From contig NZ_JAFBCE010000001.1 in assembly GCF_016907555.1 (NCBI RefSeq), positions 2,232,001-2,296,000 on the forward strand: a stretch of 64,000 nucleotides of DNA. The letters run 5' to 3'. A program made the position numbers and the translations under genes. The notes under the pieces were generated by a model that saw only the letters and a program-made list of their open reading frames with translations, had not been told where the DNA came from and made no database searches. This DNA is from Microbacterium laevaniformans. GTDB lineage: Bacteria > Actinomycetota > Actinomycetes > Actinomycetales > Microbacteriaceae. The stretch's first letter is position 1. Every line of letters begins with the position of its first letter. Shown piece by piece: positions 4,585 through 53,974 of the stretch.

Positions 4585-4630
4585 GTCGCCAGCCTATCCG
4601 CGGCCCCTCTGTGCGGGGCGACGGGGATAG

Positions 4631-4700
4631 CGGAGGAGATTTCCGTTCGGGAGGACGGATGCCGCGGCAGCGACCTCCCGACGCGGCATCTCCTCCCGGG
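4631..4700. repeat. Palindromic repeat element, copy A (GGAGGAGAT family)
   Basis: A ~70-bp element whose ends are inverted: GGAGGAGAT near the left and ATCTCCTCC near the right, with CGGGAGG/CCTCCCG as the inner arm pair. It is nearly identical (about five mismatches) to copy B at 5650-5718 and lies in the same orientation. It ends 4 nt from the stop codon of the DUF559 gene (4705), so it could fold at the 3' end of that transcript. The pair A/B brackets the DUF559 gene. Confidence 0.8.
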
Positions 4701-5541: not shown

Positions 5542-5649
5542 CGTGACCCGAGCTACATCCGGCGACCCCGCGCGCCGCGGTATCCGTGCACAACCTGTCG
5601 CCTCGCCCCGTTGGGGAGGAGTCGAAGCAGGCCCACCCGTGCGCGCCAG

Positions 5650-5718
5650 CGGAGGAGATTTCCGTTCGGGAGGACGGATGCCGCGAAAACGACCTCCCGA
5701 CGCGACATCTCCTCCCGA
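5650..5718. repeat. Palindromic repeat element, copy B (GGAGGAGAT family)
   Basis: Second copy of the element at 4631-4700, in direct orientation, with the same arms (GGAGGAGAT ... ATCTCCTCC) and differences concentrated in the central loop (GGCAG replaced by AAAAC) plus one base in the right arm. It ends 9 nt beyond the TAA of fprA (5728-5730), again immediately downstream of a minus-strand stop codon, so it may also serve as a transcript-end hairpin. Confidence 0.8.
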
Positions 5719-52692: not shown

Positions 52693-52710
52693 CCGCGGCA
52701 TCCGCCCCCG

Positions 52711-52814
52711 CCGCGCCCTCCGCGCCCTCCGCGCCCTCCGCGCCCGCGAGAAACCATCTGCGGCGCGAGAAACCCTGCCGCGCGGGGTTTCTCGGCTCGC
52801 CGGTGGTTTCTCGC
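52711..52814. repeat. 9-bp tandem repeat followed by palindromic element C (GAGAAACC family)
   Basis: Three perfect CCGCGCCCT units and a fourth partial one (52711-52746) run into a nested palindrome: outer arms GCGAGAAACCA (52746-52756) and TGGTTTCTCGC (52804-52814), inner arms GCGAGAAACCC (52765-52775) and GGGTTTCTCG (52785-52794). It lies between ktrA and the second AbiEi/Vsr-type gene (start 52916). The 100 bp between the palindrome and that start hold nothing else I can name except a CATGAT promoter hexamer. Confidence 0.85.
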
Positions 52815-52915
52815 CGGCGCACGGCGGCTCCTCCCCAGGCGGCGCGGGAGGGGATGACCGCGGGAAGGGTGGGGATGAGACCGCGGCGGCGCGGGTGCCG
52901 GGGCATGATCTGCGG

Positions 52916-53911
52916 ATGCCGCACCTGCCGACGGACCGTGCCACCACCCGGTCACCGCTTCCGCTCGTCACCTCCGCCGAGGCCCGCGTGCTGCGGCTGG
53001 CGGTGGCCGGTCCCGGTTTCGTGCGGGTGCGCTGCGGCGTGTACGTGGATGCCGCCGCGGCGGCGCGGCTGGCGCCGTGGCAGCGGTATGCGCTGCGGGT
53101 GCACGCCTTCGCGCTCGTCCACCCGGATGCCGTGCTGTGCCTGGAGTCCGCCGCGGTGCTGCTCGGCCTGCCGCTGTTCGGCGAGGCGCGCGACATCCAC
53201 GTGTTCGATCCGGACCGCACGGCGTCGCGACGGTTCGGCGACGTGTGCGTGCACACCAGCACGGACGCGCGGGAGGTCGTGAGCGTCGACGGCATCCTGT
53301 GCACCTCGCCGACGGATGCCGTCATCGATCTCGCCCGCGTGCTCCCGCCCGCGCAGGCGCTCGCCGTCGTGGATGCCGCGATCTCGCCCCGACAGGGCGG
53401 CGCTCTCGTCGTCGACGACCTCCGGGAGCGCGCCGCGTCGCAGGCCTCCCGCCGGGGCGTCGCGCGGCTGGCGTGGGCCTGGGCGCACGCGGACGCGCGC
53501 GCCGAGTCGCCCGGCGAGAGCGTCAGCCGCGCCGTCATCCGCTGGTGCGGCTTCGAAGACCCGGTGCTGCAGGCCGAGTTCCGCTACGAGGGGGTCACGG
53601 ACCGCACGGACTTCCTGTTCCCGTCGAGCCGCACGGTGGGCGAGAGCGACGGCTGGGGCAAGTACGGCATCGACGACGGCGACGCGCCAGCGGCGGCCGC
53701 GCGGCGTTTCCGCGACGAGAAGCGCCGCGAGGACCGTCTGCGCCGCGCGGGGCATCCGGTCGCACGCTGGGAGATGGCGGACGCGGTGCGGGTCGAGCCG
53801 TTGGCGACCGCCCTGCAGCGCGCGGCCGTCCGGCTCGTCCGCCCGCGCGACCGCGCCGGACTGGCGAGCCTGCGCCAGACGCCCCGTACCCTCCCTCACC
53901 GACCGCAGTGA
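52916..53911 (+). CDS. AbiEi-like protein with Vsr/PD-(D/E)XK-type nuclease domain
   Basis: A 331-residue protein related in layout to the one at 4705-5541: N-terminal AbiEi-like winged-helix and linker (VLRLAVAGPGFVRVRCGVYVDA ... CLESAAVLLGLPLF), then a C-terminal nuclease-like domain with GESVSRAVIRW, TDFLFPSSRTVGESDGWGKYG and EKRREDRLRRAGHPVARWEM. Here the acidic pair (E-x-D) and following Lys look intact. Function unknown. ATG 52916 is six bases after CATGAT; a GTG at 52895 would lie upstream of that hexamer. GAGAAACC palindromes flank both sides, the downstream one overlapping the stop codon. Confidence 0.72.
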   Translation: MPHLPTDRATTRSPLPLVTSAEARVLRLAVAGPGFVRVRCGVYVDAAAAARLAPWQRYALRVHAFALVHPDAVLCLESAAVLLGLPLFGEARDIHVFDPDRTASRRFGDVCVHTSTDAREVVSVDGILCTSPTDAVIDLARVLPPAQALAVVDAAISPRQGGALVVDDLRERAASQASRRGVARLAWAWAHADARAESPGESVSRAVIRWCGFEDPVLQAEFRYEGVTDRTDFLFPSSRTVGESDGWGKYGIDDGDAPAAAARRFRDEKRREDRLRRAGHPVARWEMADAVRVEPLATALQRAAVRLVRPRDRAGLASLRQTPRTLPHRPQ

Positions 53912-53974
53912 GAAACCACAACGGCGACGACACACACCTGCAGTGGTGGTTTCTCGTATCGAAGGTGGTTTCTC
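53910..53974. repeat. Palindromic element D (GAGAAACC family)
   Basis: Left arm GAGAAACCAC (53910-53919) begins inside the TGA stop of the AbiEi/Vsr gene. Two right arms GTGGTTTCTC follow (53946-53955 and 53965-53974). Arms are identical to element C upstream of the gene, so the gene is bracketed by the same family. A weaker remnant (GAGAAACCAC at 54870-54879, imperfect GGTTTC at 54901) lies beyond proC. Confidence 0.82.

Follow-up and report, generated by a model that had tools for sequence, protein, structure and literature searches.

Predicted nuclease genes flanked by gene-specific palindromic elements in Microbacterium

REP-like elements are common bacterial repeats, and in the papers considered here the enzyme class tied to them is the HuH transposase. 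In these systems, named REPtrons, a RAYT (TnpA-REP) gene is bordered by cognate palindromes, is stationary and usually present in single copy, and is accompanied by non-autonomous dispersed palindromes (REP and REPIN elements), with clusters next to the gene and co-evolution of enzyme and repeat (PMC3116915, PMC8266576). Three further systems bear on the genes described below. I-Bth0305I is an EDxHD/Vsr-like homing endonuclease that binds a target of nearly 60 bp as a dimer (PMC3943268), the AbiEi antitoxin of the AbiE type IV toxin-antitoxin system and Rv2827c bind multiple 23-bp inverted repeats upstream of their own genes (PMC7319586), and the MTES_1575 Vsr-type REase domain has been described in giant proteins with helicase and HEPN domains (PMC3710099).

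Here we analysed a window of 64,000 nucleotides of Microbacterium laevaniformans (positions 2232001-2296000 of a 3.03-Mb single-contig genome, G000), in which a gene for an AbiEi-like protein with a predicted nuclease fold lies between two palindromic elements. In Microbacterium, many such genes sit between two copies of an element particular to that gene, and two of these elements were also found scattered elsewhere in the genome, which suggests an undescribed system that spreads small DNA repeats. Compared with REPtrons, the enzyme has AbiEi-like and Vsr-like predicted folds instead of a HuH Y1 transposase, and the elements are lattices of two or four half-sites that differ between gene lineages, found here in Microbacterium and some other actinobacteria of the same order. 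In contrast to the homing endonuclease, the protein carries an AbiEi-type DNA-binding module and its gene stands between two elements and not in an intron, while the elements are dispersed in many copies. Compared with AbiE, a nuclease-like domain is fused to the AbiEi-like part and the repeats lie on both sides of the gene and are dispersed, and compared with the helicase-type MTES_1575 proteins, these are proteins of about 280-360 aa. A survey of the open-access literature in PMC, to which most subscription papers and all preprints do not belong, found no description of this association, and we regard the pairing of this enzyme with such elements as new in kind, although the way of life itself has the REPtron as precedent.

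The locus and its protein

The first-pass annotation had described nested palindromes on both sides of the gene, the downstream one overlapping the stop codon, with arms that match across the gene but not those of a second nuclease gene near 5 kb, and an adjoining 9-bp tandem repeat. This description is confirmed by our analysis (Table 1). All half-sites lie on one 19-bp lattice, of which the downstream element lacks the second forward site, and the stop codon TGA is at 53909-53911. The 9-bp repeat is present in 5.9 copies but is missing from the 97% identical orthologue L112, and we therefore take it as incidental. The arms do not match the GGAGGAGAT type of the 5-kb gene. The match between the two flanks is not due to chance, as they share a 37-bp segment at score 22 against a maximum of 17.5 in 156 mismatched flank pairs, and the pattern GAGAAACCN{0,30}GGTTTCTC occurs 6 times, at 5 places, in the genome while its reversed control occurs 0 times. 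One correction is needed, namely that the genome holds 13 genes of this type and not two.

Table 1. Features of the two loci in the window (positions are those of the window; > and < give half-site orientation)
Position	Strand	Feature	Details
52693..52745		9-bp tandem repeat CCGCGCCCT	beside the upstream element
52746..52814		upstream cognate element	GAGAAACC at 52748(>) and 52767(>), GGTTTCTC at 52786(<) and 52805(<); 19-bp pitch
52916..53911	+	331-aa protein (P0001)	AbiEi-like DNA-binding module (about residues 14-193) and predicted Vsr/I-Bth0305I-like nuclease fold (about 197-307)
53910..53974		downstream cognate element	GAGAAACC at 53910(>), GGTTTCTC at 53948(<) and 53967(<); same lattice; overlaps the stop codon
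4705..5541	-	second member of the gene family	DUF559 over its cut-off; weak MTES_1575 and AbiEi_4 matches
5648..5717		upstream element of the 5-kb gene	GGAGGAGAT..ATCTCCTCC
4629..4698		downstream element of the 5-kb gene	direct copy of its upstream element; shared-segment score 60

P0001 matches PADLOC AbiEi models (best E 8.1e-8) but no Pfam family at E<=1, so that no Y1 transposase domain is present, and its sequence contains no H-hydrophobic-H motif, in line with an enzyme that differs from that of REPtrons. A confident AlphaFold2 model (pLDDT 89.4) aligns residues 14-193 with the AbiEi antitoxin 6y8q (Z 8.6) and residues 198-307 with the catalytic domain of I-Bth0305I (Z 7.8), the nearest solved nuclease fold in the list, while Vsr aligns at Z 6.5. 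Foldseek alone gave no match at E<=0.001, and the fold names thus rest on middling scores. E201, D232, E243, D245 and K249 are invariant in 20 relatives, which together with the fold match would fit a Vsr-like core with an acidic active site, but with no Pfam match and with activity not assayed these observations do not settle whether P0001 belongs to that fold. The gene is under purifying selection, as dN/dS against the three nearest orthologues is 0.26, 0.15 and 0.27. Pfam analysis of the five neighbouring genes gave TrkH, TrkA, ProC (P5CR), an alpha/beta hydrolase and a deaminase, and a toxin-antitoxin system was rejected because no AbiEii nucleotidyltransferase or other toxin family was found among them.

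Flank sharing and anatomy of the elements

The 13 genes of the genome comprise P0001, L008, L009 and ten genes found with PF18741, of which only four pass the curated cut-off of that profile; P0001, L008 and L009 were not among its hits. Of 11 PF18741 hits, L015 (at 1891896), a large helicase-like protein ending in an MTES_1575-type nuclease domain, was set aside, and of 21 AbiEi_4 hits, those without a nuclease part or duplicating other loci were set aside by eye. L021 (at 146580) is an AbiEi_4 protein of about 205 aa without a nuclease part, whose flanks show no clear shared palindrome. When each upstream flank was compared with its own downstream flank and with those of the other genes, nine own scores exceeded all 156 mismatched pairs (mean 11.1, maximum 17.5), those of L010, L018 and L020 were each reached by one of the 156, and that of L017 (13.0), reached by 12%, was not significant.

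The first-pass annotation had interpreted the arms as cognate to each nuclease gene and had proposed comparing arm sharing between the flanks of such genes in Microbacterium with that of random or size-matched genes. Carried out in much this form, the comparison supports the interpretation. In all 39 genus genomes sampled, PF18741 matches were present at E<=0.001, in 19 of 39 over the curated cut-off, helicase-type proteins included. For 82 genes (13 own, 29 returned loci and 40 fetched places, with the truncated ORF L062 retained and start codons chosen by length), we determined the longest k-mer found with its reverse complement within 130 bp in both flanks. A k of 9 or more was found in 24 of 82, against 0 of 2000 random window pairs, 5 of 2000 mismatched flanks and 0 of 100 size-matched control genes, the latter drawn from G000 and the relatives G080, G081 and G189 and not from all genomes of the 82. 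At k of 8 or more, the counts were 30 of 82, 12 of 2000, 25 of 2000 and 1 of 100. The other 58 of 82 genes do not pass the strict criterion. Of 80 loci from named relatives, 73 were tested and 15 reached 9, against 34 of 3000 mismatched pairs, with high values also in Humibacter, Naasia, Cryobacterium and Cellulomonas; several of these are the same loci as in the genus survey, and the two sets are thus not independent. Of 29 further loci, 3 had too little flank, and of the 26 tested, 16 are larger, truncated or helicase-like frames. The remaining 10 (L318, L323, L325, L326, L329, L331, L332, L333, L335 and L336) are of nuclease-gene size, none is from the same order, and all gave k of 5 or 6 without shared arms. 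Although this sample is small, L326 is short and the AbiEi part of the ten was not checked, it suggests that the flanking elements are a feature of this group and not of the whole protein family.

Element sharing follows protein relatedness. Among 104 genes of 250-370 aa, cross-gene sharing of an arm of 9 bp or more was seen in 7 of 9452 ordered pairs under 45% protein identity, 10 of 666 at 45-55%, 110 of 578 at 55-70%, a bin that is mostly the P0001 clade, and 6 of 16 above. In the 82-gene set alone, the counts were 7 of 5772 below 45%, 9 of 644 at 45-55% and 5 of 64 above (14 of 708 above 45% in all), the sharing pairs including L010/L075, L019/L110, L013/L056 and L057/L094. Some orthologues have changed half-sites, for example L135 and L137.

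Five families of this genome with unrelated half-sites (GAGAAACC, CGAGACAC, GAAATCGGC, CACGAACTCCGCA and CAGATGCGGA) show repeated half-sites at 19-bp pitch and one (GTGTCCCAC) at 21, whereas the others, including L010, L012, L018, L019 and L020, show mainly one opposed pair and not four sites; the half-sites were picked by eye. Across the 82 genes, 19-bp spacing of a shared 7-mer occurs in 21, against 1.7 expected from random windows and 8.3 from mismatched flanks, and 18 bp is also raised (17 against 9.2 and 9.6). In 64 distinct 65-bp GAGAAACC elements, the positions between the outer half-sites are 63% complementary, compared with 24-37% when slid and 55% (maximum 58% in 500) when arms are swapped between elements. 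The upstream element (z -6.95) and the solo elements L001, L005 and L006 (z -4.4 to -8.1) fold as strong DNA hairpins, while the downstream element is weaker (z -2.44). The element could serve as a double-stranded site array or as a hairpin, and the folding result neither distinguishes the two nor tells whether a hairpin forms in the cell. Such hairpins could also belong to ordinary bidirectional transcription terminators or host repeats with no tie to the nuclease. However, no intrinsic-terminator-like site was found at the window locus, element sharing follows the nuclease gene and its relatives, copy number of one family follows the gene, and the equal flank sharing in other genes that would have revived this reading was not seen in the 100 controls. 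We thus regard it as very unlikely. A known structured RNA was likewise rejected, as the only match was to a miRNA family at 22 bits (gathering 93, E 0.95).

Dispersal and variation of the elements

GAGAAACC palindromes occur at three further places in the genome (L001, L005 and L006), outside called genes, of which L005 (at 2316524) is extended to six half-sites, apparently by tandem duplication of a 19-bp unit. A second family (GTGTCCCACT; the GTGTCCCAC family of gene L016) has four places away from its gene, with 0 control matches, although two of these, L225 (1136821) and L226 (2432529), overlap the end of a crudely called open frame and may lie inside coding sequence. Dispersal was checked for these two families only. 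In 295 genus genomes, the longer GAGAAACC pattern was found in 56, with up to 38 matches per genome, overlapping matches within one element being counted, and the reversed pattern was found in none.

Abundance of the GAGAAACC element tracks a close homologue of the gene. Three or more matches occur in 29 of 44 genomes with a homologue at E<=1e-100, against 14 of 251 others (Fisher p = 7e-19). This test was run for one family on values transcribed from the two surveys and does not correct for shared ancestry, and only seven candidates per genome were scored, so that homologues may have been missed. Fifteen of the 44 genomes have no match to the pattern. In addition, the genomes G033, G112 and G258 carry 31, 13 and 14 matches but only distant homologues, none of whose fetched loci carries GAGAAACC, and possibly represent orphan populations after gene loss; in G112, a distant homologue is split over two frames.

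Three intergenic sites differ in element presence between close relatives. Between pgi and an HTH-cupin regulator (2316.5 kb in G000), G000, G081 (M. hominis NBRC 15708) and G189 carry the element, G000 having two more 19-bp units than G189, whereas in G080 (Microbacterium sp. oral taxon 186 F0373) a different palindrome family in tandem copies (L183) occupies the site. A site near 2318.8 kb has an element in G081 and none in G000, with which G189 is collinear there. The L001 site has 130 bp with the element in G000, the element in G081, and 31 bp without it in G189. No target-site duplication was recognised at the empty sites.

At trkA-proC, where G000 has element-gene-element, 30 genomes selected by us were compared, with palindromes other than GAGAAACC judged by eye. 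G080 has element-gene-element, G037 a solo GAGAAACC element and G005 a solo that resembles the family of its gene L060. Five others have other palindromes, 11 a bare gap of 11-74 bp and six another gene or an unclear gap, and in 5 proC was not found within reach. The G037 site is in line with the two-part system proposed below, but could also be read as an empty target or a remnant of a selfish, free-standing homing gene whose target is the element, with element-gene-element as the occupied site and gene loss by recombination between the flanking repeats. The fold match to I-Bth0305I and the near-identical direct flanks of L013 (score 92.5) are supportive of this reading. However, each flank carries a nearly whole element and not half of a split one, and orthologues stay at few loci, with five (74-98% identity) next to trkA and 18 of 24 of the ~60% set in one group by single linkage of shared flanking DNA. 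Elements also outnumber genes of the family in many genomes, and carriage on mobile replicons was rejected, since searches gave no phage match and 2 weak plasmid matches. Invasion of a target by break repair was not assayed, and we consider homing unlikely but not excluded.

A proposed two-part system

We favour, with some confidence, a model of a REPtron-like system with an unrelated nuclease. One part would be a stationary gene, as a rule one per lineage, for an AbiEi-like wHTH protein with a Vsr-type nuclease, and the other a family of palindromic elements made of two or four copies of an 8-13 bp half-site in opposed orientation, which in the GAGAAACC family amounts to four sites over about 66 bp. 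The sequence analysis itself demonstrates the cognate elements shared by both flanks, the different half-sites of different gene lineages, the solo elements of two families, the association of copy number with the gene for one family, an element sharing that follows protein relatedness and the presence/absence differences at three orthologous sites. Beyond this we infer that the AbiEi-like part reads the half-sites, as AbiEi and Rv2827c bind inverted repeats (PMC7319586), that several protomers assemble on the lattice, that the nuclease nicks or cuts at or near the element or its extruded hairpin, and that repair copies the element to new sites in trans, much as TnpA-REP is thought to spread REPs, while the gene itself would rarely move. 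Binding, movement and cleavage, including that of the single-stranded repeat, were not observed or measured here. The palindromes next to the gene and dispersed in the genome, and the correlation of repeat abundance with the gene, agree with REPtrons, and it is in the enzyme that membership fails.

A further-reaching version, which we consider about as likely as not, is a second, independently evolved class of bacterial REP-spreading system, in which a domesticated AbiEi-Vsr nuclease has diversified into about a dozen orthogonal lineages per genome, each reading its own half-site on a preferred 19-bp lattice and seeding its own population of miniature palindromic elements, which compete for the same intergenic sites. 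A non-homologous nuclease with its own palindrome families would show that this way of life arose more than once. It would also provide a naturally orthogonal set of DNA-binding nucleases with readable cognate sites, and it puts a testable function on a large group of genes that profile libraries file under AbiEi antitoxin or DUF559.

Alternatively, the AbiEi-like domain might be an autoregulator and the elements its operators, with solo copies as other sites of its regulon and a nuclease that serves defence or another purpose. The inverted-repeat binding of AbiEi and Rv2827c and the position of the upstream element, about 100-230 bp before the start in the families of this genome, are consistent with this reading, which is not excluded but seems improbable to us. 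A downstream copy overlapping or following the stop is not needed for an operator, L001 and L005 lie between convergent genes, where an operator is not expected, and elements come and go between close relatives. In addition, repeated element copies lie downstream of the gene at L058, L063, L083 and L086, and at these loci as well as at L069 and L108 several copies of the half-site pair stand in a row, like REP clusters.
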